Shown: in pieces, positions 1,477 through 43,042 of the stretch
How the letters are laid out: every line of letters starts with the position of its first letter
Position numbering within the stretch: the first letter of the stretch is position 1
Origin: Bacteroides sp.
Lineage (GTDB): Bacteria > Bacteroidota > Bacteroidia > Bacteroidales > Bacteroidaceae
DNA length: 53,566 bases
NCBI GenBank assembly: GCA_017472925.1
Contig: JAFUNS010000004.1
Span: 1 to 53,566 of the forward strand
Direction of reading: 5' to 3'
Translations under genes and position numbers: made by a program
The notes under the pieces: model-generated
Told to the model about the DNA's origin: nothing
The model's database searches: none
Seen by the model: only the letters and a program-made list of their open reading frames with translations

Positions 1477-1562
1477 TTACTTATTCATAGTATGAATGAT
1501 ACTGATAATCTGTTACTTAAACAAATCTATAAAGTTAATAAAAGTTATCACTTATTTGATTA

Positions 1563-2091: not shown

Positions 2092-2093
2092 GG

Positions 2094-2411
2094 TTAGGAC
2101 ATTTTACGCAGCAGCTCAGCAGCTACCAACAGGTTATTACTCTTAATCTCAACCATGTCTCCTGTAGGACTTGACAACACGAGTTGTGCAACTTGCCAGA
2201 CGGAAGGCACGGTCTTTTCTTCCAAAGACAATGAAATGAAACCGGGAGCTGTCGGAGCTGCTTCTGCCTTACGAGGGGGATAGTTCTTCTTGTATTCGAT
2301 GAGCCAATCATAATCAACTCCTTCTTCCTTGCAGTATTTTCTCAAACTGCGACCACTACGATGTTGGTTGTAATCCTGCATCACTTTTTCAAAGTATTCT
2401 TTCGTCTCCAT
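2094..2411 (-). CDS. tnpA: IS66 accessory protein TnpA
   Basis: This 105-residue protein sits first in the IS66 gene order. Its N-terminus (FEKVMQDYNQHRSGRSLRKY followed by CKEEGVDYDWLIEYKK) resembles the helix-turn-helix of IS66 Orf1 proteins, which read like a shortened IS3-type OrfA. The C-terminal half is a low-conservation linker ending in an amphipathic stretch, NNLLVAAELLRKMS. It is followed at once by tnpB. A -7-like box 146 bases upstream (2557-2564), near the element end, probably drives it. Confidence 0.8.
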   Translation of the reverse strand: METKEYFEKVMQDYNQHRSGRSLRKYCKEEGVDYDWLIEYKKNYPPRKAEAAPTAPGFISLSLEEKTVPSVWQVAQLVLSSPTGDMVEIKSNNLLVAAELLRKMS

Positions 2412-2556
2412 TCAAATTATGTTTTGATTCGGAAACGAAGGTAGGGAGAATATTTAGGACTACCTTACGCTATAACGGTCGTTTACTCTTGTAAAGGAAC
2501 CAGAGTTTTTCAAAATCACTATTGCTATACATAAATCTTGTTTTTGATTGATGATG

Positions 2557-2564
2557 CAAAGGTA
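2557..2564 (-). promoter_or_regulatory. Probable IS66 promoter -7 box
   Basis: The minus strand reads TACCTTTG here, an exact TAnnTTTG box, with TTG about 20 bases upstream at the inner edge of the element terminus. It faces tnpA. Confidence 0.5.
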
Positions 2565-2662
2565 TTTTGAACTTGTTTAGCAGTCAATACGTCATTTTGG
2601 ACGCTTACTAGTCTTATACGTTTACTCTTATTTTATAATCAAAAAATCACGTTGCTTAAAAC

Positions 2663-6509: not shown

Positions 6510-6511
6510 AC

Positions 6512-7177
6512 TTATTTTTTAGTTTTAAGTTTAAAATCCACACCAATTACTATACGAGGGTTCTCTTCAAAGAAATTATTTCCCCACATATAGAAATTCC
6601 AATCTTTATATGTATAATAGAAACCAGCTGCAACATCAATTTTATTTTCAAATTTCCAATCATGAAGGATTCCTAGCATGGGGGTAATGCCACCTTTATC
6701 CTTTAAATAGACGTAATAACCAAGATACCACCACTGATTCCAAGTATTATCAGCATTTTTATTTATACCAGCCCAGGTATTAGATACCCAAAACAAATTT
6801 CCATCAGAGGTTATGGAACCATTTTGATATAAGCCGAGAGTTAAATAATTAAACTCAAAGTTGTTTCCCATATCAAAAGATGGTGTTGCCTGCAAACCAA
6901 TACCATACCACTTATTAAACCTATATCCGCCTCGGACCAAAAAACCCCAATATACACTATTATTATAACTATAAATATCCGTTCCTGCTGCTGCATAATC
7001 TGTAATACCATACTGAAAAGTTGTATAAGACTCTTGCGCATTAATCGAAGGACGGAATTTTAAGGAAGTGTATCCATAAATATTACCATCACCTGCAGTT
7101 CCAGCAAAATAGGGTATTTGTGCATAGGTAGTCAATGCGAAAAAGGCAAAGATTACCACTATAAATAGTTTCTTCAT
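6512..7177 (-). CDS. Secreted protein, probable small outer-membrane beta-barrel
   Basis: This 221-residue protein has a clear Sec signal peptide (MKKLFIVVIFAFFALTTYAQ, cleavage likely after YAQ). The mature part alternates aromatic and polar residues, with strands such as YGFLVRGGYRFNKWYGIGLQ-like segments, and ends IVIGVDFKLK, like the last strand of a beta-barrel. I do not recognise a named family. It sits 9 bases after the BCCT transporter gene and 2 bases before the ATP-grasp gene, so it belongs to the same transcript. One reading is an outer-membrane channel supplying the transporter. Another is a surface factor for polymer modification. Confidence 0.6.
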   Translation of the reverse strand: MKKLFIVVIFAFFALTTYAQIPYFAGTAGDGNIYGYTSLKFRPSINAQESYTTFQYGITDYAAAGTDIYSYNNSVYWGFLVRGGYRFNKWYGIGLQATPSFDMGNNFEFNYLTLGLYQNGSITSDGNLFWVSNTWAGINKNADNTWNQWWYLGYYVYLKDKGGITPMLGILHDWKFENKIDVAAGFYYTYKDWNFYMWGNNFFEENPRIVIGVDFKLKTKK

Positions 7178-7186
7178 ATCATTAAC

Positions 7187-8524
7187 TTAACTTTTAATCT
7201 GAAATTTCTTGAAATAAAAAATAGAAACATATACAATAAATATGATAGCTATAAGTATCATGAAAGGGACAAATAAGAAACTTAATCCCTGAACAGCTGA
7301 TGTGGTACCAGAACCCACTAGCAAAAGAACAGTCACAAATAAGACCTCTAAAAGCACCCACATTATCTTTCGGTACACAACAGGTATTTTACTTCCCTTG
7401 GATATAATATTATCCATGGCAAAAGACATACTATCTGCTGAGGTAACATAAAATAAGGACATCAGAAGAATAAAAATAGGAGGAATAAAGGAATACTTCT
7501 TTATAGATAAATAAGGTAATTCTGTTATAGCATTTCCATTATTAAGCAATTCCATTCCTATTGAATTTCCGACAACCATATACAAGGTAATAAGAATGGA
7601 AGGTACAACTACCGTATAAAATACAACAGAGCGAATTGTACGTCCTTTACTGATTGTTACGATAAATGGAGCTGTAAATGCTGCCCATGAAATCCACCAT
7701 ATCCAATAGTAAACAGTCCAATCTTTTTGAACAGATCTACCATCATATATGTTATTATAAAAAAAATCAGATAAAAATGATCCAATTGCATCTACCCCAT
7801 TAGCTACTGTACGAGATGGAGCGCATAAAATCATAATAAACATAAATATATATAAGAGAATCATAGAAAAAGAAGCAAACTTCTTCATGCCCCTATGAAT
7901 TCCACGTAACAACGAAATTGTCACAAGTGCTCCAAGCAATACCACAAGAGCATAACTTGGTATACTGATACCATAAACATTCTCTAAAGCCCCTGAAATA
8001 GTAATAACTCCTAATGCGAATGAAGTTCCTATACCTAGCATCATTAACAAACCATAAACATAAGTTTTTATATTTCTAAGCCAGTTAGGCAAAAGGTTAT
8101 ACTTCTGATCATAAATTTCAAATATTGCAAATGTAACATAAAAAGCCCATGGTATAACAATCCAATGATTTATTGTCAAACCTATGGGATTGCGAACTTC
8201 CGAATATTGACTAAGAGCAGCGGCTTCATTAAATCCATAGACCATAATGCCTACACCCATTCCAAGTGTAAAAAGTAAATTAAAGTACGCAAAGTCACTA
8301 AATTCGACTACACCCGGGACTCTCTCCTTATTAAAAAGATTAATAAGGCAAAACAACACACAGAAGAGTGCAAACCACATTATAAGTCCATTTAAAGGAC
8401 TCAGAATCTCAAGGGAGTTGTTTGGAAACAATCCCATCACGCCCATACCAAGAACAACTAACACCAACGCTACGAAGAACCAAATACGACGTGAAGCAAG
8501 TAAATTCTTACTAATTTTCTCCAT
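7187..8524 (-). CDS. BCCT family transporter (betaine/choline/carnitine type)
   Basis: This 445-residue membrane protein has about 12 hydrophobic segments and the BCCT signatures. TLGMGVGIMVYGFNEAA matches the glycine-rich stretch of TM3, and WTVYYWIWWISWAAFTAPFI followed by SKGRTIR matches the tryptophan-rich TM8 segment. It is shorter than typical BCCT carriers, which exceed 500 residues, mainly at the C-terminus. The family takes up quaternary amines such as betaine, choline and carnitine using ion gradients, or exchanges them. Its place as first gene of a glycan operon is unusual. The complete IS66 element ends 27 bases upstream of its ATG, so the native upstream region has been separated from it. 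Confidence 0.85.
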   Translation of the reverse strand: MEKISKNLLASRRIWFFVALVLVVLGMGVMGLFPNNSLEILSPLNGLIMWFALFCVLFCLINLFNKERVPGVVEFSDFAYFNLLFTLGMGVGIMVYGFNEAAALSQYSEVRNPIGLTINHWIVIPWAFYVTFAIFEIYDQKYNLLPNWLRNIKTYVYGLLMMLGIGTSFALGVITISGALENVYGISIPSYALVVLLGALVTISLLRGIHRGMKKFASFSMILLYIFMFIMILCAPSRTVANGVDAIGSFLSDFFYNNIYDGRSVQKDWTVYYWIWWISWAAFTAPFIVTISKGRTIRSVVFYTVVVPSILITLYMVVGNSIGMELLNNGNAITELPYLSIKKYSFIPPIFILLMSLFYVTSADSMSFAMDNIISKGSKIPVVYRKIMWVLLEVLFVTVLLLVGSGTTSAVQGLSFLFVPFMILIAIIFIVYVSIFYFKKFQIKS

Positions 8525-8550
8525 TATAATTATTTATTTATTTGTAATAA

Positions 8551-8570
8551 GTAAGTACTCAAATTAGGGC
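8551..8570 (+). repeat. IS66 terminal inverted repeat, tnpC side
   Basis: It is 19/20 identical to the reverse complement of 11230-11249. The direct repeat TTGTAATAA abuts it at 8542-8550. Confidence 0.92.
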
Positions 8571-8578
8571 ATACCCCT

Positions 8579-8602
8579 TAGAAAGGCACTTTTTCAGTGC
8601 CC
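8579..8602 (-). terminator. Weak intrinsic terminator after IS66 tnpC
   Basis: On the minus strand GGCACT and AGTGCC form a short stem closed by a 5-base loop and followed by TTTC. It lies between the tnpC stop and the element end, so it could limit read-through from the IS into the BCCT operon. Confidence 0.45.
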
Positions 8603-8638
8603 TCAACGAGATATGTTAAAATTTAAACGATTTATTAA

Positions 8639-10432
8639 CTATTGGCATACTGCCATTTCGATATTTCCAGGTGTAAGGCAAAAGAAATCCCTACATCCGT
8701 TAAAGATTTTTGTGAAAAAAGTTCCGAGATAGTTCCAAACGGACTTCCCGTGAAGTTTCACCGTACTGATGACACTATGGTACGTAGCAGCCATCTCCAC
8801 ACCTTCATCACTGCCGAAGTGGAGCATACAGTTGCGCTGGGTTGTCAATTTACGGATACATCGCTCTGCCAGATTATTGTCTATAGGTAACTCTCCATCT
8901 TCCAAAAAGGCAAAGAGTTCGTCCCAAAAATGATTCAGATAATTAAGAGCTTCTGTATAGTATGGACTTCGGAACTCAGCATCTTTAGACAACTCTGCAT
9001 CAAGCCTGCTACGAATCCTTATCACTATTTCCTTGGTCTCTAAACTTTGCCGTTCCTTCAAACGTTCTTCAGATGTAAGACCTGCTTCATCGTATCTATG
9101 TTCACGAAAAAACAATTCGCCAAAATCATTTGAGAACAATGCCGCATTCGGTTCGCTACCCTGATTGGCAGCCTTGACAAACTTATTATTGTTATGCGAC
9201 ATACAGACCTGATGAATGGTATCCTTGAATTGGGCTGACTTCAATTCGTCACCTATAAATACATAAGCATTATAGCCGTCAGTCATAACGCTCTTCAATT
9301 CAGCATCACCCAAGAAGTTAGTAAGCACATCACGACCTCTGGAACCATCCTCATAGAAGAATATACAAATCTTTTCGGACTTGTTCACCAAAACCCAAAT
9401 ATAGCATTTCTTATAATGGTCATACTTACGAACCTTGCACCAAGTCTCGTCACAGTTCACGATGGAATCCTTCTCCAAAGCAATCGATTTGAGAACAACA
9501 ATAAGCTGGTCAAGATACTTCTTTCCCTTTTTCAACCAATTACGTAAGGTATTGGATGAAATAGTCATACCCATATCGGTAAGCCATTGATGCAGAAGTC
9601 CAAAGGTCACGTTCTTTACATACACTTCATAAGCGATAGCCTGAAGGAAATCAGGAGTAGCCTTGGTTCCTTCAAACTTGGTTACAACTTCAGGATGTCC
9701 TTGACTGGGAAAATAGCCCCACTTGGGTTTCTTACCAGGTTCTGCATAATGAACCATTTCAAAACGCTCTTCTACAAGACAGGTCTTAAAACTAAAAACT
9801 TGAACCGTTTTCGTTTCAATGACATGTCCCGGAACCTTGCTACGGTCGGAAGGATGATAAACAGGTTCACCTTCCACACCCATTGTCTTATATTCATCCG
9901 GACGATTGGATAAATCACGCTCCTTCTTCGGTGGTTGGTTTTCCGGATTCCCAGCTTCATTATTGACAGAATCCGTACGCAAAGTATCATCAGTACCATC
10001 AAACTCTTCCTTTTCCTTATTACGGTCAGGCTCATCTGGCTTATCAGAATCTTTCTTCACTTTCTGACGCTTGTCACCGAAACGATTGGCATTGGCGTAT
10101 TTCAATCGCTCGTCAAGACGTTGGGCTTTGCGTTCGGCAGCCTTACGCTTGCGGGTTTCTTCATCCAAACGGGACAGAAGCTTTTGTTGGTCAGCCTGCA
10201 AAGCTGCCATTGATTTTTGCATCTCCTGCTGAGTTCTCAGAAAATCTTCAAGCACAAGTTCCATAGCACGCTTATCCAAGTCAAGGTTAGTGACGCGGTC
10301 AGCCAAGTAATCAATAAAGCGGTCTTTCTGATCTTCGGACATATCTTCACTGCGGTTTAAAGCCGGACGCGAGAAAGTATCCCGCATCAACAGCTCGCGC
10401 TTCTGATTGACTATTTCCGATAATTTGAACAT
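8639..10432 (-). CDS. tnpC: IS66 family transposase TnpC
   Basis: This 597-residue protein is a full IS66 DDE transposase. Residues from about 60 to 120 are a coiled coil (RTQQEMQKSMAALQADQQKL, then RKRKAAERKAQRLDERLKYA), followed by an acidic, poorly conserved linker. The catalytic domain shows NCDETWCKV, SVMTDGYNAY and LPIDNNLAERCIRKL, which supply the two Asp and the Glu. The C-terminal tail HSVISTVKLHGKSVWNYL is shared with the fragment at the window start. It lies 71 bases after tnpB. Nothing in it looks damaged. Confidence 0.95.
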   Translation of the reverse strand: MFKLSEIVNQKRELLMRDTFSRPALNRSEDMSEDQKDRFIDYLADRVTNLDLDKRAMELVLEDFLRTQQEMQKSMAALQADQQKLLSRLDEETRKRKAAERKAQRLDERLKYANANRFGDKRQKVKKDSDKPDEPDRNKEKEEFDGTDDTLRTDSVNNEAGNPENQPPKKERDLSNRPDEYKTMGVEGEPVYHPSDRSKVPGHVIETKTVQVFSFKTCLVEERFEMVHYAEPGKKPKWGYFPSQGHPEVVTKFEGTKATPDFLQAIAYEVYVKNVTFGLLHQWLTDMGMTISSNTLRNWLKKGKKYLDQLIVVLKSIALEKDSIVNCDETWCKVRKYDHYKKCYIWVLVNKSEKICIFFYEDGSRGRDVLTNFLGDAELKSVMTDGYNAYVFIGDELKSAQFKDTIHQVCMSHNNNKFVKAANQGSEPNAALFSNDFGELFFREHRYDEAGLTSEERLKERQSLETKEIVIRIRSRLDAELSKDAEFRSPYYTEALNYLNHFWDELFAFLEDGELPIDNNLAERCIRKLTTQRNCMLHFGSDEGVEMAATYHSVISTVKLHGKSVWNYLGTFFTKIFNGCRDFFCLTPGNIEMAVCQ

Positions 10433-32785: not shown

Positions 32786-33079
32786 ATGCTTCAATTGGAT
32801 GATTGTAAAAATAAGTTAACCGACTTCAAAAGTAAATTTGGTTTGAAGTATGGGCTTGTTCGCATCGGTATATTCGGCTCTGTAGCGAGGAGGGAGAATA
32901 CGGCCAATAGCGATATAGACATTGTCGTGGAATTGGAGAAACCATCTTTACGCATAATGTATGATTTGCGGGAAAACTTAAAAGAAGTATTTGGTTGTGA
33001 TGTTGACCTCGTGAGATTCAGAGACTCATTACGTCCTTTGTTGAAGCATAATATACAAAACGAAGCCGTTTATGTCTAA
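32786..33079 (+). CDS. mntA: MntA-like minimal nucleotidyltransferase (antitoxin of HEPN/MNT pair)
   Basis: This 97-residue protein carries the MNT motif GIFGSVARRENTANSDIDIV: G-S, then the two catalytic Asp of SDIDI, with a third acidic position around DVDLV. In type VII toxin-antitoxin systems the MntA protein adds AMP to a Tyr of the HepT toxin and thereby silences it. The gene ends in an 8-base overlap with the HEPN gene, the normal order for this pair. Length is typical for minimal nucleotidyltransferases. Confidence 0.9.
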   Translation: MLQLDDCKNKLTDFKSKFGLKYGLVRIGIFGSVARRENTANSDIDIVVELEKPSLRIMYDLRENLKEVFGCDVDLVRFRDSLRPLLKHNIQNEAVYV

Positions 33080-33446
33080 AAGTTCGCGTTACACAATCAA
33101 AGATAGATTAGAACAGATAGCAGAATCCATTGAATTGATAATCTCCCGGTGTGAGAATATCCATACGGCCAATGATTTTTTGCTGTCTCCTGATAACGTA
33201 ATGAAATTTGATTCCTGTGTAATGAGGCTTCAAGCTATAGGCGAGCAGATTGGGAAAATCTTGAAGGAAGATAATTGTCCTTTAGACAAATATCCAGATA
33301 TACCATGGATGGCGGCTTATGATATGCGAAATTTCATATCTCATGAATATGCCAGCATTGACGAAGAAATCGTATTTGATGTGATAAAGGAAGATTTGCC
33401 TCCAATGCAGGAAGCTGTTGAGAAGATACTATCTGAAATGAATTGA
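33072..33446 (+). CDS. hepT: HepT-like HEPN ribonuclease toxin
   Basis: This 124-residue protein is a DUF86/HepT-type HEPN domain. The conserved Rx4HxY motif is intact near residue 90 (MRNFISHEYAS), with Arg and His as RNase residues and Tyr as the usual target of AMPylation by MntA. The N-terminal helix DRLEQIAESIELIISRCENI and LQAIGEQIGKILKE fit the helical bundle. It follows mntA with overlapping codons (ATGTCTAA). Role: a growth-arresting RNase held in check by its partner, possibly in phage defence. Confidence 0.9.
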   Translation: MSKSSRYTIKDRLEQIAESIELIISRCENIHTANDFLLSPDNVMKFDSCVMRLQAIGEQIGKILKEDNCPLDKYPDIPWMAAYDMRNFISHEYASIDEEIVFDVIKEDLPPMQEAVEKILSEMN

Positions 33447-33620
33447 AATTCTCCTTTCCCTATATGTTCAAAGAACTTGCAGACACGAAAAGTGATGAAC
33501 ATGCGAAGGTTTTAGGAATATTATATACTTGCAATCATTTCCAAACTTATACTCCATTTGCTCTCTAAAGAGAAGAATCATAAATTCTTTATTCAATAAT
33601 TTGTTTTCTTTAAACTTTTA
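33447..33620. other. Intergenic stretch after the first HEPN/MNT module
   Basis: No gene is seen. 33456-33477 (TTTCCCTATATGTTCAAAGAAC) is a copy of a sequence that also flanks the second HEPN/MNT module. The rest is AT-rich. Confidence 0.5.
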
Positions 33621-33621
33621 C

Positions 33622-33629
33622 ATACATTT
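33622..33629 (+). promoter_or_regulatory. Promoter -7 box of the leader RNA
   Basis: The box reads TACATTTG, with TTTG-like sequence about 20 bases upstream. Transcription would begin near 33636, about 305 bases before the next gene. Confidence 0.65.
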
Positions 33630-33635
33630 GCAATG

Positions 33636-33885
33636 ATTATCGCCAAAGAGTTGACGATAATCGTTTTATGGGAAAAATTAGCGTTTGCTATTATTCTATA
33701 ACCGTCTATTGAAACTTAGGAACTTTCAACGGTGAGTCAGGTTAAGAATAAGTTGCAGATGCCTACGTATAGCGTAGGTGCATCTTATTTCTTCATGACT
33801 CAAGGTATCCTAAGACCTCAATAGACAAAGATATAAAAGATGTCATCTACGCTTTTTTTATACTTGAGGAGTTTAGGATACCGCT
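33636..33885 (+). ncRNA. Structured leader RNA or small RNA with two exclusive folds
   Basis: A first small hairpin pairs GATTATCG with CGATAATC (33634-33662). A long rod follows: 33704-33712 with 33818-33826, 33715-33721 with 33808-33814, 33733-33739 with 33796-33802, AAGAATAAG near 33744 with CTTATTTCTT near 33783, then CTACG with CGTAG at the tip. A competing hairpin pairs 33804-33813 and 33816-33821 with 33873-33882 and 33864-33869. Both use 33804-33824, so they cannot coexist. A run of seven T lies at about 33853. It may be a cis-regulatory switch, or a free RNA with a rod fold like 6S RNA. Confidence 0.55.
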
Positions 33886-33940
33886 TCGCTTCAATCTTCC
33901 TTATTTTAATAGAAATATTATTCACTTAATCTATAAGGAT

Positions 33941-34612
33941 ATGAAAAGACTGTTTCTTTTTATTGTATTGTCTATTCTGACAAGTGGAGCGACTTTCGCT
34001 CAATCGGCAAAAGAATTGGCTAAAGAACGTAAAGAATTGATGAAAGCTTCAAAAGCTGAATTAAATGACAAGGCTACGAAGGCTGCCCGTAAAGAAGCCA
34101 AGAAGCTGAAGAAGGAAGGTTGGACTACCGCACCAGGTGCTCTTCCTTTGGAAAAGCAATTGGACAAATCGTATCTGATGCAATACGAATACGATGTAGA
34201 AATGTTTCCCAAGTACATCATGGGCGAAGCTATGAGCATCGGTGGAAACTACGATGCCGCCAAGATGCAAGCCTTGGAATTGGCGAAGCAGAACTTGGCA
34301 GGTCAGATTCAAACAGAAGTAACAGCCTTGATTGAAAACACGGTGGCCAACGAGCAGATGGAAGCCGAACAGGCAGCCAGTATCACCCGTAGTGTGATGG
34401 CCAGCAAGAACTTGATTTCTCAAAGCATTGGTCGTACCATCCCTGTAATAGAGGTATATCGTACGCTTTCCAACAAGAACAAGGAAGTATTGGTTCGTGT
34501 CGCTTATAACAGCGACATGGCAAAGAAAGCTGCGATGAAGGCCATCAAGGAAGATTTGGAAAAGAAAGGCGATGACCTACACAACAAGTTGGATGAACTT
34601 TTAGGCTGGTAA
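33941..34612 (+). CDS. Secreted LPP20-like protein, first gene of the caspase cluster
   Basis: This 223-residue protein has a Sec signal (KRLFLFIVLSILTSGATFAQ). The N-terminal third is a highly charged Lys/Glu helix (LAKERKELMKASKAELNDKA). The rest includes GEAMSIGGNYDAAKMQALEL, LAKQNLAGQIQTEVTALIEN and NKEVLVRVAYNSDMAKKAAM, which together recall the LPP20/FlgT-like fold of helix plus beta strands. I do not recognise a named family. It lies 7 bases before the DUF4384 gene and downstream of the structured leader. Expected place: periplasm or cell surface. Confidence 0.65.
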   Translation: MKRLFLFIVLSILTSGATFAQSAKELAKERKELMKASKAELNDKATKAARKEAKKLKKEGWTTAPGALPLEKQLDKSYLMQYEYDVEMFPKYIMGEAMSIGGNYDAAKMQALELAKQNLAGQIQTEVTALIENTVANEQMEAEQAASITRSVMASKNLISQSIGRTIPVIEVYRTLSNKNKEVLVRVAYNSDMAKKAAMKAIKEDLEKKGDDLHNKLDELLGW

Positions 34613-34619
34613 TTATCTT

Positions 34620-35489
34620 ATGCGATTCCGTCTCTTCATAACCGTCTGTCTATTTCTGTTTGCTTTGTCCGCATTGGCTCAGCGAACAGAGAAAGTGCGT
34701 GCAGAGTACATCTATCATGCTCCCGAAAACATCTCGTTGGAAGAAGCCAAGCGTATCGCTTTGGAGCGGGCCAAGATACAAGCCATTGCCGATGAGTTTG
34801 GTACCATTGTTTCGCAAAGCAATACCACGATGGTGAGCAATCGCAATGGAGAATCTTCTACTGATTTCTTCTCCTTGGGGGGAAGCGAGGTAAAAGGCGA
34901 ATGGATAGAAACCATTGGTGAACCATCGTATGACATCAACTATGAGCAAGGGATGTTGGTGGTGAAAGCCATTGTGTCCGGTCGCATTCGTGAGATTGTC
35001 TCAGCGCAAATCGACATCAAGGCAGAAGTGCTTTGTAATGGTACGGATTTGAAGTTTGCTCGTACAGATTTCAAGAACGGCGATGACCTTTATCTGTATT
35101 TCCAATCACCGGTAGATGGCTATTTGGCAGTGTATCTTTTGGAGGAAGTCAGTCAGATGGTATATTGCTTGCTTCCTTATAAAAGTTCATCAGAGGCGGT
35201 TACACCCATTGAACATGATAAACCTTATGTTTTCTTTTCTGCCAAAGATGCCGGTGACAAGGCTCATTTGGTGGATGAGTACACCATGACTTGTAATAGC
35301 TCCGTTGAACGGAATACCATTTATGTGGTCTTCTCTTCGAATGAATTTACAAAGGCCAATTCTTATAATGTGGAGGTATTGTTACCGCAGGAACTTTCGT
35401 TTGAGGAGTTTCAGAAGTGGTTGATTCGGGGGAGAGTAAAGGATAAGGTGATGGTTGTAAAACGGAAATATTTAACTATAAAGAAATAG
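34620..35489 (+). CDS. Secreted DUF4384-type protein with FlgT/LPP20-like N-terminus
   Basis: This 289-residue protein has a signal peptide (RLFITVCLFLFALSALAQ). Residues about 38-125 (SLEEAKRIALERAKIQAIAD, ending VSGRIRE) resemble the LPP20/FlgT N-terminal fold. Residues about 150-280 (NGDDLYLYFQSPVDGYLAVY, then MVYCLLPYKSS) match the DUF4384 pattern, a domain often found with caspase-like peptidases. It lies in one operon with the preceding gene, and the caspase protein follows three genes later. It is probably a periplasmic or surface partner in that system. Confidence 0.75.
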   Translation: MRFRLFITVCLFLFALSALAQRTEKVRAEYIYHAPENISLEEAKRIALERAKIQAIADEFGTIVSQSNTTMVSNRNGESSTDFFSLGGSEVKGEWIETIGEPSYDINYEQGMLVVKAIVSGRIREIVSAQIDIKAEVLCNGTDLKFARTDFKNGDDLYLYFQSPVDGYLAVYLLEEVSQMVYCLLPYKSSSEAVTPIEHDKPYVFFSAKDAGDKAHLVDEYTMTCNSSVERNTIYVVFSSNEFTKANSYNVEVLLPQELSFEEFQKWLIRGRVKDKVMVVKRKYLTIKK

Positions 35490-35494
35490 AAAAT

Positions 35495-35731
35495 ATGGAA
35501 AGTAAAGAATATGTATATAATCTTGTAAAGGATTGGTATAATGAATATTATATTAATACCAATTCAAAGCGAAAAGTCGTACAAGACAGAATTAGAAATT
35601 ACATAAATGGGTTATCACACAATTTTATTAGAGAAATATATCCTCAATCTGTGTCAACACCTATCTCATATTCTCATTTTGAAAGCGATTTAGATGAGTT
35701 CTTGATTTTACTAAAATCTAAAATATCGTAA
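35495..35731 (+). CDS. Small hypothetical protein, AT-rich
   Basis: This 78-residue protein (MESKEYVYNLVKDWYNEYYI...LDEFLILLKSKIS) has no signal peptide, no membrane segment and no motif I recognise. It looks mainly helical. It begins 5 bases after the DUF4384 gene and ends 1 base before the next, so it is probably translated as part of the operon. Its base composition is markedly more AT-rich than the two genes upstream, and it may be a dedicated partner of the AbiJ/HEPN-like protein that follows. Confidence 0.6.
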   Translation: MESKEYVYNLVKDWYNEYYINTNSKRKVVQDRIRNYINGLSHNFIREIYPQSVSTPISYSHFESDLDEFLILLKSKIS

Positions 35732-35732
35732 A

Positions 35733-36368
35733 ATGGCAAAGATGTATTCTATTGAAAGGAGAGAATATTGGTCTGAAACAAATCCATATTTAAAGGTATA
35801 TATTCGGAAAACAGAAGATATGCAAGAATTACAAATTAAATTGGAAGCCTTATCTTCAGTGAAACGTGCAAATCCGAATAAGGATTATTTTGTTGTTTAC
35901 AATAGAAATCCATATACGATTTCTGAAACACAGAAAGAAGTAGAATCATGTTTGGACAAATTTTATGATAGAGAATCTTTAGATGAATTGTCGATAATTA
36001 GTGAATCTTTAGATTGGTATGATAAAGCAAAATCTTTGTTTGAGAGTGGCTGTAAGAAATATAAATCAAGAAATGATCTTAGAGGATGTTTGGATGATTT
36101 TAGGCTATCGTTAGAATTGTTGTTGAAAGAAATATTACACAATGAAAGAACGTTAGATAATCAATTGATACCTTTAAATCAATACCTTGCAGAAAAAGGT
36201 GTTTCTTCGGAAATAAGTAATGGCTTTAGACATTTCTTGGATTGTTATAATAAATATCAGAATAATCATGTCAAGCATAATTTAAATATAGCGAAAAATG
36301 ATGCGACAATCATAATAGAACAAACTAAATCTTTGATTAACATATTAATGAAATTGAAAGGAGAATGA
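35733..36368 (+). CDS. AbiJ/HEPN-like C-terminal domain protein
   Basis: This 211-residue protein has a C-terminal helical domain: DLRGCLDDFRLSLELLLKEI, then a loop, then NNHVKHNLNIAKNDATIIIE. It resembles the HEPN-like C-terminal part of abortive-infection proteins (AbiJ-type), where an N-x-x-x-H pattern near the end is conserved. The N-terminal 90 residues have no motif I can name. No signal peptide is seen, so unlike its neighbours it is cytoplasmic. It sits 1 base after the small ORF and 1 base before the caspase gene. AT-rich. Family call is moderate. Confidence 0.55.
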   Translation: MAKMYSIERREYWSETNPYLKVYIRKTEDMQELQIKLEALSSVKRANPNKDYFVVYNRNPYTISETQKEVESCLDKFYDRESLDELSIISESLDWYDKAKSLFESGCKKYKSRNDLRGCLDDFRLSLELLLKEILHNERTLDNQLIPLNQYLAEKGVSSEISNGFRHFLDCYNKYQNNHVKHNLNIAKNDATIIIEQTKSLINILMKLKGE

Positions 36369-36369
36369 T

Positions 36370-39300
36370 ATGGTTAAAATATTTTTTAAATTATTGTTAT
36401 TGTTTATAAGCGTAAATGTTACGATATCAGTTTATGGACAAAATGATAAAATAATTCAGTTTGATAAGGGAATTAATTATTTTTATGGAGCTAATGATGT
36501 AAAACAGGATTATGACCAAGCTTATAAGTGCTTTAAATATTCGGCAGAATTAGGTATGGCTGAGGCTCAATTTATGTTGTCATTTTGTTACTTAAATGGA
36601 TTAGGAGTTGATGAAGACGAGGATGAGGCTTTCGAATGGATGTTGAAGTCTTCAGAACAAGGATTACCTAACGCCTTGTTTTGGATAGGACGATATTATA
36701 TTTATGGATTGGGATGCTTAGTTGATAAGAAGAAAGGATTTGATAATGTTCTACAAGCAGCAAATGCTGGACTTGTTGAAGCTGAATATTTTTTAGGCTC
36801 ATGTTATATGGAAGCCATAGGAACAGTAAAAAATGAGAAGAAAGGATTTGACTGGACATTGAAGGCTGCAGAAAAAGGATTGGCAGAAGCTCAAAATTCT
36901 GTTGGTTGGTATTATGCTACAGGACAAGGTGTCCCTATAAATTATAAGGAAGCCATAAAATGGTATGAAAAAGCGATGTCTCAAAATAACGCATGGGCAT
37001 ATAATAACATGGGATATATGTATTTTGAAGGTAATGGAATTGAAAAGGATATAAATAAAGCATTTGAATTTGTTGATAAAGCTATAAAAATAGACCCTGA
37101 TAATTTGAGCTTTTATGATTCAAAAGGGGAATTTTATTCAAGAATGGGAGATGAAAAACAAGCGTTGGAGATTTGGAATAAAATCATATCATTGAATCCT
37201 AAATTTGTGGAAAATGATACACGCTTTGTTCAATATATTAAAAACTTGAGTGAACGAAAAGTTCAAAAAGGAGAGGGTAAACTTATTGATGAATGGGTGA
37301 TTTATCCACAATATGATTATGCTTCTTCATTTGTTGATGGATTATCATTAGTTAAAGTTGGTGATAAATATGGATATATAAATAAAAAAGGAGAATATGT
37401 AATATCACCTAAATATATTGCAGCACGTGATTTTAAAGAAGGCATGGCTATTATAGGAATGAAAATTGGTAATAAACTTGTTTGGGGAATTATTGATGTA
37501 AATGGGAAATCTATTTGTTCTCCTATTTATTCTGAAATTAAAGATTATAGCGAAGGATATGCCGCATTTTATTCTTCAGCTTATGAAAAGTGGGGATTTA
37601 TGGATAAAAGGGGAAAAATGATTATTCCTACGGAATACGATGATGTTATTTCTTCTTTTCAGGAAGGTTTTGCACATGTCATTAAGAATGGCGTAAAAGG
37701 GTTCATAAATAAAAATGGTGAATGGGTTTGTTCTGAACAATATAATAAGATAGTATATAAGGAACTTAAACAAAGAGTATATAAAAATCAATCTGTTTTA
37801 TGTGAATTATATCCTAAAGTTAGTAATGGTAAATGGGGGTATCAAAAAGCGACTTTAGACGCTTATATTAATACAAATATACTATCGTGGGATGTTTATC
37901 TTTCAGTAAATCTACCCCCATTGGTCTCTTATGAAAATTATTTAAAATATCGCATAGAACCAAGTATAAATCAATGGCAGCAAAAAGGTGAATTTGAACC
38001 TACGACTAAATGGAAAGAAAGAGTAAACGAAACAACAAGGAAACAAAAAATTGATGAATTAACAATTGAATATAAAAAAGAGTACGAGGAGAAATTGGCT
38101 TCTTATAAGAAACGTTATACAGAATTGGTGGAAGAATACAAGGAAAAATACAATAGATGTCGTGATGAGTTCTATACACTAATTATACAATCCAAGCAGA
38201 ATGAATTTAAAATGTCGAGCTTTGATTTGTTGGTTTATGATGCAGATAATCAATCGTTTATGATTAAATCAAACATGCAGGGTGATATTCTAATGTCAGT
38301 ACCTTTAGAAGAAGCCCCTTCGTTTAAACAGAATTGGAATACAATTAAAAATACAATTACGCCAACATTTGTACCTTCTGGTAATGATGTAGTACTAACT
38401 TCTGTGACAGTAACCAATGGGAATAAGAAGTATGTATATGATAGCCATACACAAGCAAAGTATGCAATAACTGATATTAATTACAATTTTGATCCTGTAG
38501 AAATATCTATACCTGAAGTTGCGGATGTAAACTATACATTTGATCCAGTTGAAGTGATACAATCAACAGTTGTACAAACTTTACCTAATGTTAAAGGATT
38601 GGAAGCGAATAATGCAAATATTGAACGTAATATAATTAACGCAACTAAACAATCGGATGTGGATATGAATATTCCACAAAATACAATGCAAAAGAATAGT
38701 AGTACCTTTGCGGTCATTATAGCAAACGAAGATTATCAACGTGTATCCGATGTGATGTATGCAGCTAATGATGGGAAACTGTTTGCTGAGTATTGCCAAA
38801 AGACATTAGGACTTCCGCAAAATCATGTGATGGTATATAATGATGCTACATTGGGAAATATGTTGGGAGCGGTAAGTCGTATAAAAGAAATAGGTGAAGC
38901 TTACAACGGAAAAGTAAATGTGGTGTTTTATTATGCTGGTCATGGTATCCCCGATGAGACAAGTAAGGATGCCTATTTACTTCCGATTGATGGTGACGGT
39001 TCCTCTGTAAGAACATGTTATAAACAAAGTGAACTTTATACAGAACTTGCATCAATCAACGCTGAATCAATAGTCGTGTTTATGGATGCATGTTTTAGTG
39101 GCTCATTGCGTGGAAATGGTATGTTAGCTTCTGCCCGTGGTGTAGCCATCAAAGTCAAGAAAAGTAACCCTATAGGAAATATGGTAGTATTCTCTGCTGC
39201 ACAAGGTGATGAAACAGCTTACCCATATAAGGAACAACGCCATGGCATGTTCACTTACTATCTCTTGAAGAAGTTGCAAGAAACCAAGGGAGAAGCCACC

Positions 39301-39435
39301 TTGGGTGAAATAAGCGACTATGTAACGAGTGAAGTCCGCAAGCAATCCATTGTTATCAATGGAAAGATGCAGACTCCTACCTTGACATCATCGTCGGCAA
39401 TAGGGGATGCTTGGCGTAACTGGAAATTGAAATAA
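36370..39435 (+). CDS. Secreted Sel1-WG-caspase (peptidase C14-like) protein
   Basis: This 1021-residue protein has a signal peptide (FFKLLLLFISVNVTISVYG). About six Sel1/TPR repeats follow (residues 25-285, for example AEAQFMLSFCYLNGLGVDED). Then come about four WG repeats (310-460; DKYGYINKKGEYVISPKY, KWGFMDKRGKMIIPTEYDD), a coiled coil (560-615), and a duplicated motif D-x-NY-x-FDPVE (about 700 and 718). From about 778 there is a caspase-like domain with His858 in FYYAGHG and Cys908 in VFMDACFSG. The catalytic dyad is intact, predicting a cysteine protease acting in the periplasm or outside. Codon usage shifts near 38700: the front is very AT-rich, while the caspase domain resembles the upstream secreted genes. 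Confidence 0.88.
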   Translation: MVKIFFKLLLLFISVNVTISVYGQNDKIIQFDKGINYFYGANDVKQDYDQAYKCFKYSAELGMAEAQFMLSFCYLNGLGVDEDEDEAFEWMLKSSEQGLPNALFWIGRYYIYGLGCLVDKKKGFDNVLQAANAGLVEAEYFLGSCYMEAIGTVKNEKKGFDWTLKAAEKGLAEAQNSVGWYYATGQGVPINYKEAIKWYEKAMSQNNAWAYNNMGYMYFEGNGIEKDINKAFEFVDKAIKIDPDNLSFYDSKGEFYSRMGDEKQALEIWNKIISLNPKFVENDTRFVQYIKNLSERKVQKGEGKLIDEWVIYPQYDYASSFVDGLSLVKVGDKYGYINKKGEYVISPKYIAARDFKEGMAIIGMKIGNKLVWGIIDVNGKSICSPIYSEIKDYSEGYAAFYSSAYEKWGFMDKRGKMIIPTEYDDVISSFQEGFAHVIKNGVKGFINKNGEWVCSEQYNKIVYKELKQRVYKNQSVLCELYPKVSNGKWGYQKATLDAYINTNILSWDVYLSVNLPPLVSYENYLKYRIEPSINQWQQKGEFEPTTKWKERVNETTRKQKIDELTIEYKKEYEEKLASYKKRYTELVEEYKEKYNRCRDEFYTLIIQSKQNEFKMSSFDLLVYDADNQSFMIKSNMQGDILMSVPLEEAPSFKQNWNTIKNTITPTFVPSGNDVVLTSVTVTNGNKKYVYDSHTQAKYAITDINYNFDPVEISIPEVADVNYTFDPVEVIQSTVVQTLPNVKGLEANNANIERNIINATKQSDVDMNIPQNTMQKNSSTFAVIIANEDYQRVSDVMYAANDGKLFAEYCQKTLGLPQNHVMVYNDATLGNMLGAVSRIKEIGEAYNGKVNVVFYYAGHGIPDETSKDAYLLPIDGDGSSVRTCYKQSELYTELASINAESIVVFMDACFSGSLRGNGMLASARGVAIKVKKSNPIGNMVVFSAAQGDETAYPYKEQRHGMFTYYLLKKLQETKGEATLGEISDYVTSEVRKQSIVINGKMQTPTLTSSSAIGDAWRNWKLK

Positions 39436-39455
39436 GATAAAGAACCTCGTTCTTT

Positions 39456-39469
39456 GACATATTGGGAAA
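39456..39469 (+). repeat. Left arm of 14-bp inverted repeat around the second HEPN/MNT module
   Basis: GACATATTGGGAAA is the exact reverse complement of 40153-40166. Extended, its reverse complement continues CAAAGAAC, as does the copy at 33456-33477. Confidence 0.7.
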
Positions 39470-39519
39470 CGGAAATTGACTGATAAATTTAAAATACTGG
39501 AAGAAATATTGTAAAAGAC

Positions 39520-39548
39520 TTGTTTCTTTCATGTTTTTCGTATCTTTG
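39520..39548 (+). promoter_or_regulatory. Promoter of the second HEPN/MNT module
   Basis: TTG at 39520 and TATCTTTG at 39541-39548 form a -33/-7 pair. It is nearly identical to the promoter at 32735-32764. Confidence 0.75.
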
Positions 39549-39573
39549 TCGATATAAAACATGTGATAATATA

Positions 39574-39870
39574 ATGAAGACAAGAAGTGAATATTTAGAA
39601 TTGCTCAATACGCATATAACGGATTTGAAAGAACAATTTGGTGTTCGTTCGTTCCGTTTGTTTGGCTCTGTTGCTAGAAATGAACATACAGAGGAAAGCG
39701 ATGTGGATGTTTGTGTAGAAATGGAGCCTGATATGTATTTGCTTGTCGGATTAAAACAGTTCTTGGAAGCATTGTTGGGTTGTTCTGTTTATGTGATTCG
39801 AATGCATCGTAATATGAATAAATTGTTATTGAAACAAATAGAGAAGGATGGTGTGTATGTGTTCGGATAA
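39574..39870 (+). CDS. MntA-like minimal nucleotidyltransferase, second copy
   Basis: This 98-residue protein carries FRLFGSVARNEHTEESDVDV with the G-S and paired Asp of the MNT active site, and a later CVEMEPDMYLLVGLKQFLEA helix. The ATG at 39574 is preceded by the promoter TATCTTTG. The frame is open further upstream, but those codons run through the promoter. It is only moderately similar to the first copy (32786-33079), though the promoters are close to identical. Its HEPN partner downstream is truncated, so the antitoxin may now be unpaired or serve the first HepT. Confidence 0.85.
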   Translation: MKTRSEYLELLNTHITDLKEQFGVRSFRLFGSVARNEHTEESDVDVCVEMEPDMYLLVGLKQFLEALLGCSVYVIRMHRNMNKLLLKQIEKDGVYVFG

Positions 39871-40130
39871 AAAAGAAATTAGCTGCAACTTGCATGTTGA
39901 TAGAAGCTATCGGTGAGAGCATTAAGAAAATCGACAAAAACACCTATGGAAGTTTGTTACCTTTGAGACTTGAAATACCTTGGAAACGAGTTTTGGGAAT
40001 GCGTGATCATATAGCACACGGGTATTTTGATATAGATGCTGAACTTGTCTTTCAAACAGTGAAAAATAACTTGGATTCTCTACTTAACGCTGTTCGTTTC
40101 TTTATTGATGAACTGACTCATAATAAGTAA
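39840..40130 (+). pseudogene. Truncated HepT-like HEPN gene
   Basis: The frame encodes KLAATCMLIEAIGESIKKID, then WKRVLGMRDHIAHGYFDIDA with the Rx4HxY motif kept, then VKNNLDSLLNAVRFFIDELT. About the first 50 residues expected of a HepT protein, including the first helix, are absent. The nearest ATG in frame (39894) falls inside the second helix. An ATG in the MntA-overlap position (39855) runs into a stop after 19 codons. A deletion at the mntA-hepT junction is the simplest explanation. Product, if any, would be 78 residues. Confidence 0.7.
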
Positions 40131-40152
40131 TAAATCGTAAAGCTGATTCTCT

Positions 40153-40166
40153 TTTCCCAATATGTC
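40153..40166 (-). repeat. Right arm of 14-bp inverted repeat around the second HEPN/MNT module
   Basis: TTTCCCAATATGTC is the exact inverse of 39456-39469. The module and its promoter lie entirely between the two arms (about 710 bases). Confidence 0.7.
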
Positions 40167-40191
40167 CATTGAATGCATAACAGAGTAGTGT

Positions 40192-41667
40192 ATGGACATA
40201 AAAAGAAAATTGGGATTGAGTATATTGCTTGGCGTTATATCATTAGCGTTAAATGCACAAGTGAATGAATTTGAAAAGGAGTTTGAGGAATTTACCCGGC
40301 AGGCAAGGAAGAACTACAATGATTTCCGAAGTAAAGCCAATAAGGAGTATTCCGACTTCATACGGAAAGCGTGGGAAATATATCTGGCTAAACCTGAAAT
40401 CCCTAAACCGAAGGATGAACCGCCTGTGCCACCCACTCCATATCCTAAGGATGATAAAGACGAACCTATAGAAGATACCCCGAAACCTTATGATGAAGTA
40501 GTGCCTGTAGTGGAACCGGAAGCACAGCCCAAACCGGTAGACCCCATTCGGGAGGAACCTCAACCTAAGGAAGAGACTTTTTCTTTCGGGTTCTTTCAGA
40601 CGGCATGTAAGGTTAGGTTAGGGGACAACCAGCGCTTTTCATTAAAGAATACCAGCAAGAATGCATTGGCGGATGCATGGGAGCGTTTGGCAAGTAGTGA
40701 ATATAATAATGTAATTCGTGATTGTTTGGAACTTCGCATTCGACACCGGTTGTGCGACTGGGCTTACCTGTTGATGTTACAAGAACTTTCGGATGCTTAT
40801 TTGGGTAAGGGGACAAACGAAAGTACTTTGCTTTGTGCTTATCTTTATTGTCAGTCGGGTTACCAAATGCGTTTGGGATTGGGAAACAACAAACTGTATC
40901 TGATGGTGGCAAGCAAACACCAAATTTATGGACGTCCTTATTGGGAGATAGAGGGGATGTCTTACTATCCTTTGAACTGCAATGAACGGTCGCTGGAAAT
41001 ATGTGGTGCTTCATTCCCCAAAGAACAACCTCTGTCGTTGTTGGTGGCGGACATTCCTTTGTTTGCTGAACAATTGTCCAATACCAGAACGTTACAATCG
41101 GAACATTATCAAGATATGAAAGTGCAACTTGTTTCTGACAAGAATCTAATAAGCTTTTTTGATACGTATCCAAGTTCTATGATAGGGGAGAATTTCTGTA
41201 CTCGATGGGCATTTTATGCCAATACTCCTTTGAGCAAGCGTATGAAGGAACAATTGTATCCGTCCTTGTGGAATACTGTTCAAGGAAAATCGCAATTAGA
41301 GGCGGTCAATAAGTTGCTGAACTTTGTACAGACAGCCTTTATGTACGAATATGATGATAAGGTATGGGGAGGAGACCGTGCTTTTTTTGCAGAAGAGAGT
41401 CTGTATTATCCGTATTGCGATTGTGAAGACCGTTCCATTCTTTTCTGTCGGTTGGTACGTGATTTGTTAGGATTGAAGGTGTTGTTGGTGTATTATCCGG
41501 GACATTTGGCTACGGCGGTACAATTCACGGAGTCGGTTAGTGGTGATTATATTTCATTGAACAATCAGAAATTTGTAGTTTGTGATCCTACGTATATCGG
41601 TGCTCCCGTAGGAGCTACTATGCCCGATATGGATAATAGTAGTGCTACAGTTATTTTACTGGAATAG
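40192..41667 (+). CDS. Secreted transglutaminase-like cysteine protein
   Basis: This 491-residue protein has a signal peptide (LGLSILLGVISLALNAQ). A charged helix follows (FEKEFEEFTRQARKNYNDFR), then a Pro-rich linker at about residues 66-135 (PKDEPPVPPTPYPKDDKDEP). The large C-terminal part has a transglutaminase-like triad: Cys411 in YCDCEDRSILFCRLV, His438 in YYPGHLATAV and Asp465 in VVCDPTYIG. Such folds act as peptidases or cross-linking enzymes. It lies directly after the second HEPN/MNT module and may be a functional neighbour of the caspase cluster. Substrate unknown. Confidence 0.75.
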   Translation: MDIKRKLGLSILLGVISLALNAQVNEFEKEFEEFTRQARKNYNDFRSKANKEYSDFIRKAWEIYLAKPEIPKPKDEPPVPPTPYPKDDKDEPIEDTPKPYDEVVPVVEPEAQPKPVDPIREEPQPKEETFSFGFFQTACKVRLGDNQRFSLKNTSKNALADAWERLASSEYNNVIRDCLELRIRHRLCDWAYLLMLQELSDAYLGKGTNESTLLCAYLYCQSGYQMRLGLGNNKLYLMVASKHQIYGRPYWEIEGMSYYPLNCNERSLEICGASFPKEQPLSLLVADIPLFAEQLSNTRTLQSEHYQDMKVQLVSDKNLISFFDTYPSSMIGENFCTRWAFYANTPLSKRMKEQLYPSLWNTVQGKSQLEAVNKLLNFVQTAFMYEYDDKVWGGDRAFFAEESLYYPYCDCEDRSILFCRLVRDLLGLKVLLVYYPGHLATAVQFTESVSGDYISLNNQKFVVCDPTYIGAPVGATMPDMDNSSATVILLE

Positions 41668-41734: not shown

Positions 41735-43042
41735 TTATTCCCATTCTATGGTTGAAGATGGCTTCGGTGACATGTCGTAGCATACACGATTTACATTGGG
41801 AACTTCCTTCAATATACGGTCGGTAATCTTCATGAGGATAGGCCATTCTATTTGTTCGATGGTAGCAGTCATGGCATCGATGGTGTTCACCGCGCGGATG
41901 ATGACAGGCCAATCGTATGAACGGGCATTGTTACGTACACCTACACTCTTGAAGTCGGGCACTACAGTAAAGTACTGCCATACTTTCTTGTCGAGGCCGG
42001 CGATGGCAAATTCTTCGCGGAGGATAGCATCGGCTTCGCGGAGAGCTTCCAAACGGTCGCGAGTAATGGCACCCAAACAACGTACACCCAAACCTGGACC
42101 TGGGAACGGTTGGCGATATACCATTTCGTATGGCAAACCAAGTTCTACACCACAAGCGCGAACTTCGTCCTTGAACAATTGCTTCAAAGGTTCAACCAAT
42201 TCAAACTGGAGGTCTTCGGGCAAACCACCTACGTTGTGATGGCTCTTTACCATCTTGGCTGTCTTGGTTCCTGATTCTACGATATCTGGATAGATGGTTC
42301 CTTGACCGAGGAAGTCGATGCCATCGAGTTTGCGTGCTTCTTCTTCGAATACGCGGATAAATTCACCACCGATAATCTTACGCTTCTGTTCAGGATCAGC
42401 TACACCTTCGAGTAAACCGAGGAAACGGTCGGTTGCATCAACGTAAACCAAATTTGCGCAAAGTTGGTTGCGGAATACTTCGACTACGTTTTCTGATTCA
42501 CCCTTACGCATCAAACCGTGGTTTACATGCACGCAAACCAAGTTGTCACCGATGGCTTTTAAAAGGAGGGCAGCTACAACAGAACTGTCTACACCACCCG
42601 AAAGGGCGAGGAGCACCTTCTTGTCGCCTACCTGTTGGCGGATAAGTTCCACCTGGTCTGCCACAAAGTTCTTCATGTTCCAGTTGGCTTCGGCTTTGCA
42701 AGTATCGAAAACAAATCCCTTGATGGCTTCCTTGATAGCTTCTTCGTTGTTAGCAAACTGAGCGAGTTTCACTTCGCACTTGGCCTTGTCGTGGCCAGCT
42801 GCCATAACAGGGAATCCGGCTTCGTAGATTTCTGGAAGCACATCAATTGCAACACCGTCTATTACGTTATTGGGACCACCGTTGATGATGATACCTTTCA
42901 CGTTAGGCAACGCTTTCAGTTCGGCTGCAGTGATGTCATGCGGATAGATTTCGCTGTATACACCCAATGCACGGATTGCTCTGGCAACCACGGTATTTTC
43001 GTGACTACCTAAATCCAGAATAACAATCATGTCTTGTTTCAT
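41735..43042 (-). CDS. guaA: GMP synthase with reduced, non-catalytic glutaminase domain
   Basis: This 435-residue protein makes GMP from XMP, ATP and a nitrogen donor. The PP-loop LLALSGGVDSSVVAALL (residues 148-154) and the dimerisation domain (PFPGPGLGVRCLGAITRDRL, ending IEWE) are intact. The N-terminal glutamine amidotransferase domain begins normally (MIVILDLGSHENTVVARAIR, IIINGGPNN) but has only about 110 residues instead of roughly 190. After FPVMAAGHDKAK, the nucleophile motif GxCxGxQ and the later His/Glu motif are missing. It should therefore use free ammonia or a separate glutaminase. A promoter, a short ORF and an intrinsic terminator precede it. Confidence 0.88.
   Translation of the reverse strand: MKQDMIVILDLGSHENTVVARAIRALGVYSEIYPHDITAAELKALPNVKGIIINGGPNNVIDGVAIDVLPEIYEAGFPVMAAGHDKAKCEVKLAQFANNEEAIKEAIKGFVFDTCKAEANWNMKNFVADQVELIRQQVGDKKVLLALSGGVDSSVVAALLLKAIGDNLVCVHVNHGLMRKGESENVVEVFRNQLCANLVYVDATDRFLGLLEGVADPEQKRKIIGGEFIRVFEEEARKLDGIDFLGQGTIYPDIVESGTKTAKMVKSHHNVGGLPEDLQFELVEPLKQLFKDEVRACGVELGLPYEMVYRQPFPGPGLGVRCLGAITRDRLEALREADAILREEFAIAGLDKKVWQYFTVVPDFKSVGVRNNARSYDWPVIIRAVNTIDAMTATIEQIEWPILMKITDRILKEVPNVNRVCYDMSPKPSSTIEWE

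Follow-up and report, generated by a model that had tools for sequence, protein, structure and literature searches.

The stretch of DNA analysed here, referred to as the window, comprises 53,566 nucleotides from Bacteroides sp. (assembly GCA_017472925.1, contig JAFUNS010000004.1, positions 1 to 53,566), part of a draft genome of 2.8 Mb with a completeness of 79.7%. At positions 33,941 to 41,667, it carries a cluster of genes for exported proteins, including a caspase homolog and a transglutaminase-like (TG-like) cysteine hydrolase. Exported clusters that combine these two enzyme types occur in many gut Bacteroidales. Judged by sequence, this exported cluster is real and conserved, and it is a variant of bacterial caspase operons for which no description has been found. 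At slightly less than even confidence, it is read as a conserved exported proteolytic module of the Bacteroidales with exchangeable parts and a role in conflicts at the envelope. The genes of the cluster are as follows (aa, amino acids; GC, guanine-cytosine content):

33941-34612, + strand: LPP20-like exported protein, 223 aa; no Pfam LPP20 match, homology via an intermediate
34620-35489, + strand: DUF4384 exported protein, 289 aa; Pfam DUF4384 E 0.0017, under the cut-off
35495-35731, + strand: cytosolic protein of 78 aa, unassigned family, GC 26%
35733-36368, + strand: HEPN-like cytosolic protein (HEPN211), 211 aa, GC 28%; PADLOC PDC-S32
36370-39435, + strand: exported Sel1-TPR-WG-caspase (C14), 1021 aa, His858/Cys908; Pfam
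40192-41667, + strand: exported TG-like cysteine hydrolase, 491 aa, Cys411/His438/Asp465

The open reading frame (ORF) list of the window places all genes named in the initial annotation, which was made from the sequence alone, on the + strand at these coordinates. The intergenic gaps from the LPP20-like gene through the DUF4384, 78-aa and HEPN211 genes to the caspase gene are 7, 5, 1 and 1 bp.

The 1021-residue protein had been described as a Sel1-WG-caspase with Cys908 and His858 as catalytic residues, and both descriptions were correct. It matches Pfam Sel1 (E 1e-43), WG (E 2e-34) and Peptidase_C14 (E 1.5e-24; 87.4 bits, above the cut-off of 21.4), and the His/Cys dyad is kept in 24/24 caspases from 28 other loci of the cluster. 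The caspase-profile proteins span 278-1127 aa and differ in their N-terminal parts. The names given to the other three exported proteins lie below the Pfam cut-offs or have no Pfam match, and they hold through relatives. The window TG-like protein scores 13.8 bits against Transglut_core (cut-off 23), and its name holds because the catalytic triad is conserved among relatives (Cys in 29/31, His in 31/31 and Asp in 27/31, the other four having Glu). The DUF4384 protein reaches 18.9 bits (cut-off 27). The LPP20-like protein does not match Pfam LPP20, and one of 14 members of its family does so at E 0.011; its name holds because a relative in Bacteroides finegoldii is recorded as an LPP20 family protein. 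This relative is matched by our own LPP20 profile (E 1e-16) and by our own DUF4384 profile (E 1e-5), and it scores 25.8 bits (E 1.4e-5) against Pfam LPP20, with a cut-off of 25.9. Profile-profile comparison connects the LPP20-like family only weakly with the long LPP20 proteins (probability 9%), and sequence searches of the PDB with the TG-like, caspase, LPP20-like and HEPN-like proteins gave no relatives. Export of the four proteins, also claimed initially, is supported by signal peptides assigned by eye; a crude script failed on the signal peptide of the window TG-like protein, and over all loci it accepted 23/29 LPP20-like, 17/19 DUF4384, 22/32 TG-like and 20/25 caspase ORFs.

Conservation of the unit was assessed in a family-level sample of 151 genomes, in which all counts include the genome of the window. 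The LPP20-like protein occurs in 23/151 of these genomes (26 places) and in 4/61 genomes of the genus, again including the window's, with three further places. This patchy distribution is a pattern as for accessory or conflict genes. With thresholds of E<=1e-8 for the family sample and E<=1e-10 for the genus, 28 LPP20 loci outside the window were obtained from 25 genomes, several of them from one genus, and all neighborhoods were fetched and then scored with profiles. A TG gene lies on the same strand within 5.1 kb at 25 of the 28 loci, a caspase gene within 6.9 kb at 22 and a DUF4384 gene at 18; two of the three loci without TG (L039 and L040, where L denotes loci and G genomes) have a contig end nearby. 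The refuting condition of the initial annotation, a lack of co-conservation, applies to the HEPN and MNT/HepT genes, which were detected at 0/28 loci. Individually, DUF4384 genes are present in 21/151 family genomes and TG-like genes in 46/151, and the caspase query matches 52/151, many of them through Sel1 repeats only, with at most five candidates scored per genome.

Further families of the order hold this gene set as well (L181, L183, L185, L186 and L192). Across the order, the TG protein is found in 79/344 genomes, and 20 of its neighborhoods were chosen and fetched: LPP20 is present in 10 and a caspase is nearby in 6, in one case on the opposite strand. Since the other 10 lack LPP20 by our own profile, the wider TG family also has other contexts. 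A TG form of about 870-900 aa occurs in five of the 20 neighborhoods, two of which have LPP20; in L175-L179 and in many more families of the order, such proteins carry an extra C-terminal part of about 400 aa. Carriage of the TG and LPP20 genes by mobile elements was considered and rejected: a pattern-based search of viral contigs for close relatives gave none, and the TG query matched one plasmid record. In that record, neighbors of the TG gene go by the names LPP20 family and DUF6175; the relative in B. finegoldii (NZ_OY725910.1, L195) has DUF6175, two LPP20 family proteins, a hypothetical protein and the TG-like protein, and none of the eight genes shown is a caspase.

The recurrent set thus consists of LPP20-like, DUF4384 and TG-like proteins and a C14 caspase whose N-terminal domains, among them Sel1, WG and a middle domain, vary between copies; composition, co-localization and intact active sites are evident from the sequences, with export signals assigned by eye. 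Gene order differs between clusters; two relatives of the same genus have LPP20, DUF4384, TG, a middle-domain protein and caspase in succession. The variable content includes barrel-like, CarboxypepD_reg and LRR- or WG-like proteins and lipoproteins, partly identified by eye. Some clusters hold a sigma-like factor and a partner with a membrane helix (by eye). A sigma-factor-like family, c3, is present in L116, L121, L122 and L127, where the L121 gene matches Pfam Sigma70_r4_2 at E 1e-4, under the cut-off; L181 has a c3 match by our own profile, yet no Pfam match. Sigma70_r2 is matched in L194 (E 2e-8, above the cut-off) and L192 (E 2e-4, below it), and the assignment in L120 was made by eye. 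One further caspase cluster (L041, about 1-8663) was seen to combine kinase-like, FHA-like and PP2C-like genes (by eye) with two caspase-profile genes and DUF4384.

The operon is preceded by a structured leader RNA, which is the most novel element of the locus:

33600-33630, + strand: match to a Bacteroides-type promoter, TTTG-N19-TACATTTG
33672-33826, + strand: structured leader RNA, a long hairpin, z -6.85, with strong covariation
33804-33882, + strand: switch-like alternative hairpin formed with the 3' strand of the leader hairpin, z -3.2

The promoter pattern has five exact matches on the + strand of the whole window. The leader hairpin is about 120 nt long. About 300 bp before the LPP20-like gene are conserved in G157 (81% DNA identity), and in G123, 215 bp are conserved before the first gene of the operon (78% DNA identity). 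A covariance model built from three leader sequences matches 134/399 family genomes at E<=0.001. The alignment comprises 37 high-scoring copies: those at the loci given for the best genomes, additional ones from G607 and G619, a single one from the genome of the window, and L142; a few places of 69-71 bits and many weaker matches in the 134 genomes lie outside it, and the set is not the strict top 37. The 37 copies represent 36 distinct sequences, in which 94.4% of the cells pair and 43 of the 52 pairs change on both sides. Two-sided cells number 374, against 112 in shuffles and 43-66 when the structure is slid, and pair counts lean towards the model structure. Rfam 15 gave no match on the window leader (E<=0.5) or on the element in the loci of nine relatives (E<=0.1), and the weak Rfam matches at these loci fall outside the leader. 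Downstream re-pairing of the leader 3' strand looks like a switch in the sequences: the alternative hairpin has z values of -3.2 in the window and -4.5 and -1.8 in two relatives, and such re-pairing beats shuffles (p<=0.05) in only 19/36 copies. A retron reading (TAGC, inverted ends) was dropped because no reverse transcriptase was noticed, though no search was aimed at one.

The genes that follow the leader fall into several groups. Caspase/LPP20 clusters follow 10 of the 37 copies (the window, L142, L054, L227, L229, L230, L233, L235, L243 and L244), of which the L142 cluster has LPP20 and TG, while a caspase was not found in it. Methylase or SNF2/ResIII helicase genes follow 15 copies, 11 by Pfam (L212, L213, L214, L218-L222, L224, L241 and L245) and four by methylase names assigned by eye (L216, L217, L239 and L240); these restriction-type genes include HsdM, Mod, an EcoRI-type methylase and SNF2 helicases. 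Proteins that look exported or like lipoproteins (by eye) follow eight copies (L226, L228, L231, L234, L238, L215, L223 and L225). The remaining four copies precede an acyltransferase gene (L242), a formyltransferase-like gene 375 nt away (L236), no near gene on the strand (L232) and a contig end (L237). L242, in the window's own genome (C69), is a second, weaker leader copy, and its acyltransferase is of the hexapeptide type. The strong class of 16 copies (>107 bits) stands before caspase or exported genes, and the weak class stands mostly before restriction-type genes. A TAnnTTTG-like box was seen by eye about 40-47 nt before strong-class copies, and it was not seen before several weak-class copies. 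The idea that the weak matches are mere hairpins was rejected on two observations. Of the conserved unpaired columns of the strong class, 18/34 are common to the weak class, and in 69 loci (984 kb), the only matches apart from the known copies of L142 and L054 were of 32 bits (L190) and 27 bits, the latter being the other strand of the L054 copy, compared with 69-95 bits for the weak class. The leader ties some clusters to restriction-type genes through one control element, which opens the function of the clusters to testing, since an inducer of one should induce the other.

Reading the cluster as an exported proteolytic module in envelope conflict, the LPP20-like and DUF4384 proteins may form an envelope scaffold or sensor, and the variable domains of the caspase may recognize a signal or substrate. 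Recognition would trigger the caspase, which would then cut targets in the envelope; the TG-like enzyme or an anti-sigma factor may be among them. This cleavage would be part of a response to envelope attack by phage, a rival or damage, and in some clusters the response may be tied to a sigma factor. In the window copy, an AT-rich cassette would have introduced a cytosolic HEPN-like gene that is translated just ahead of the caspase, with the MNT/HepT modules as passengers. From the sequences, we infer the location in the periplasm or outer membrane, the trigger, the cleavage targets and the part in defence. The link to defence has gained indirect support from the leader RNA, which is present on a minority of clusters. 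The envelope-acting proteolytic system suggested in the initial annotation is retained for the exported caspase/TG unit, on the basis of co-localization, active sites and occurrence in other families, and given up for its MNT/HepT modules.

Several observations weigh against a conflict role. The leader is found at 2/28 other LPP20 loci (E<=0.01; some loci begin near a contig end) and is thus not a general part of the cluster, and the window cluster has no sigma gene. A pattern-based search of viral contigs, which reaches close relatives only, gave none for LPP20 and TG and so no support for mobility. In the exported cluster, PADLOC matched the caspase alone, with a generic model (E 1e-7). In addition, the clusters contain barrel-like, CarboxypepD_reg and lipoprotein genes, which suit surface assembly equally. 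On that explanation, which we consider rather unlikely, the cluster would be a machine for surface assembly or maturation that plays no part in defence, in which the caspase and the TG-like enzyme process or crosslink outer-membrane proteins, with substrates from these neighboring genes. The frequency of such exported genes in the clusters (partly by eye) fits it, as does the occurrence of LPP20 with no nearby caspase at 6/28 loci and in B. finegoldii; the variation of caspase N-termini and neighbors, the sporadic distribution and the sharing of the leader with restriction-type genes speak against it.

The cytosolic genes before the caspase have a different composition. GC is 42-44% in the LPP20, DUF4384 and TG genes; it falls to 26-28% in the 78-aa and HEPN genes, is about 31% in the caspase N-terminus and reaches 40% again in the C14 domain. 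In a genome of another genus, G568, the leader, LPP20 and most of DUF4384 have 76% DNA identity to window positions 33671-35423. The DNA match stops 66 bp short of the DUF4384 stop, while the protein similarity reaches the last residue. There, a 157-aa gene (GC 28%, RNSIAH motif by eye) overlaps the DUF4384 stop and is followed by a Sel1-caspase, in which alignment with the window resumes over the C14 part. By this comparison, an AT-rich cassette with HEPN211 lies between a G568-like head and the C14 domain. The 157-aa protein matches Pfam HEPN pEK499_p136 at E 1.3e-4 (22.1 bits, below the cut-off of 26.6), and the HEPN211 query gave no match in the G568 stretch. Since the 157-aa gene has the same position, one slot holds two unrelated-looking HEPN genes. 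In L235 (1298-2042), the leader was observed to be followed by two small unmatched proteins, one of 117 aa and one of 152 aa that has hydrophobic stretches, and then by a caspase; these are perhaps another slot cassette. The 78-aa protein has no convincing family in profile scans and weakly resembles a protein of 89 aa that follows LPP20 in G077 (E 1e-4 in the pairwise comparison).

HEPN211, initially described as a cytoplasmic AbiJ/HEPN-like protein, matches PADLOC PDC-S32 (E 3e-31); it has no Pfam match and lacks the R-x4-6-H motif, with QNNHVKHN invariant and without R in six aligned sequences. In the structure model (mean pLDDT, predicted local distance difference test, 65.5), the C-terminal half is helical, and a structure search placed the HEPN protein 2hsb at rank 10 (E 1.7, template-modeling score 0.64 by target), with no match at E<=0.001. 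HEPN211 occurs in 2/151 family genomes, the window's included. Among five relatives, L034 and L035 lie between helicase-like and methylase-like genes (by eye), and L031, L032 and L033 have no such neighbors. Phage and plasmid records gave no match at E 1e-4, and one viral contig matched. In G123 (L129, 5297-7227), 53 nt separate an exported trypsin-like protease from a HEPN211 homolog downstream of it, an arrangement that may represent a protease-HEPN pair.

In phmmer searches of the stretches fetched for the other LPP20 loci, the window HEPN and MNT/HepT genes had no match at E<=0.01. The inner HEPN gene is a rare cassette, and there is a single parallel for it in its slot. The HEPN-with-caspase idea survives because G568 has another HEPN gene in this slot, and given the few slot cases and the absence from the 28 other clusters, passenger and partner readings are both kept. 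It is plausible, at well below even confidence, that both MNT/HepT modules, together with the HEPN-like and 78-aa genes, are carried by chance in a variable region and are unlinked to the exported unit. The zero count at the other loci, the rarity of HEPN211, the strong GC break and the presence of HepT in 18/40 genomes of the genus, which makes such genes common, favor chance; the 1-bp gap on each side of the HEPN gene and the second HEPN gene in G568 oppose it. A partner role could take the form of export surveillance, in which the cytosolic HEPN protein stays inactive as long as its partner protease is exported; when a phage blocks Sec or the membrane, the retained protease would activate it and RNA would be cut. 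We regard this as improbable: HEPN genes of two types, found in two genera immediately ahead of an exported Sel1-caspase, the protease-linked homolog in G123 and the helicase and methylase neighbors of two of five relatives are consistent with it, and these are three cases only, set against none in the 28 other clusters and a HEPN211 with QNNHVKH in place of the usual motif. Its wider form, a two-compartment immune module in which an exported protease and a cytosolic HEPN RNase are activated on a phage export block under a conflict-regulon leader RNA, is quite improbable on present sequences. If it were true, the leader would be a control RNA common to restriction operons and exported caspase clusters in Bacteroidaceae-type genomes.

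The locus also contains two MNT/HepT modules:

32786-33079, + strand: MntA-type nucleotidyltransferase, upstream module; Pfam-level match; passenger
33072-33446, + strand: HepT-like HEPN, upstream module; Pfam HepT-like E 2e-19; passenger
39577-39870, + strand: MntA-type nucleotidyltransferase, inner module; Pfam NTP_transf_2 E 2e-12; passenger
39894-40130, + strand: HepT-like HEPN, inner module, 78 aa, N-terminally truncated; Pfam HepT-like E 4e-14; passenger

The initial annotation had placed two such modules on the flanks. One does lie upstream, and the other (39577-40130) lies inside, between the caspase and TG genes, with a HepT that covers profile positions 33-117 of 120, about 25-32 N-terminal positions being missing. 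The two MNT proteins are 36% identical, so they do not stem from a recent duplication. The modules were rejected as parts of the system, as none was detected at the 28 other loci and, in the 25 genomes that bear a cluster, all 16 HepT matches fall on contigs other than those of the clusters. Both are best read as passengers, and the frame that they form is incidental. A single system, as first proposed, with the exported cluster and both modules jointly active, is very improbable: proximity in the window favors it, and the truncation of the second module and the other clusters, in which no MNT/HepT was found, contradict it. Beyond the cluster, a 435-aa GMP synthase-like protein (by eye) is encoded on the - strand at 41735-43042, and its short N-terminal amidotransferase part seems to be without the usual catalytic motifs.

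Among known systems, the leader may be likened to the leader elements for processive antitermination (UpxY/RfaH/LoaP type), with a structured 5' leader that closely follows the promoter and precedes long or variable operons; the likeness is one of arrangement. In a literature search that left subscription literature largely outside, neither the leader RNA nor PDC-S32 by name was found described, and no description of an exported LPP20-DUF4384-caspase-TG cluster was found. The two MNT/HepT pairs are similar to Type VII MntA/HepT at the Pfam level; they differ in scoring below the NCBIfam cut-off of 60 (MNT 44.1 and 47.6 bits, HepT 30.0 and 30.1 bits) and in the truncation of the second HepT. 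For HEPN proteins, PMC3710099 reports operons that join HEPN genes to Sel1 proteins (AbiU2) or to restriction systems, and operons in which solo AbiJ HEPNs accompany R-M systems. HEPN211 may be likened to the PDC-S32/AbiJ type by its PDC-S32 match, and two of its five relatives stand beside restriction-type genes (by eye); in contrast to that type, it precedes an exported caspase and lacks R-x4-6-H.

Bacterial caspase homologs have been discussed mostly as cytosolic death or immunity proteases. In a tabulation from 2012, Sel1 and TPR are among their commonest partner domains, and some have a possible N-terminal signal (PMC3501461). DUF4384 is described on cyanobacterial caspase homologs in PMC7475262, and on cyanobacterial and alphaproteobacterial ones in PMC7475262 and PMC6426788. 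The window caspase resembles orthocaspases and metacaspases in its C14 domain, His/Cys dyad, Sel1/TPR partners and possible signal. It differs from them in being exported, in having DUF4384 and LPP20-like proteins encoded as separate genes and in its TG-like partner. With their conserved active sites, their swappable domains and their occurrence in several families of the order, these exported caspase/TG-type clusters would place caspase chemistry in the envelope.

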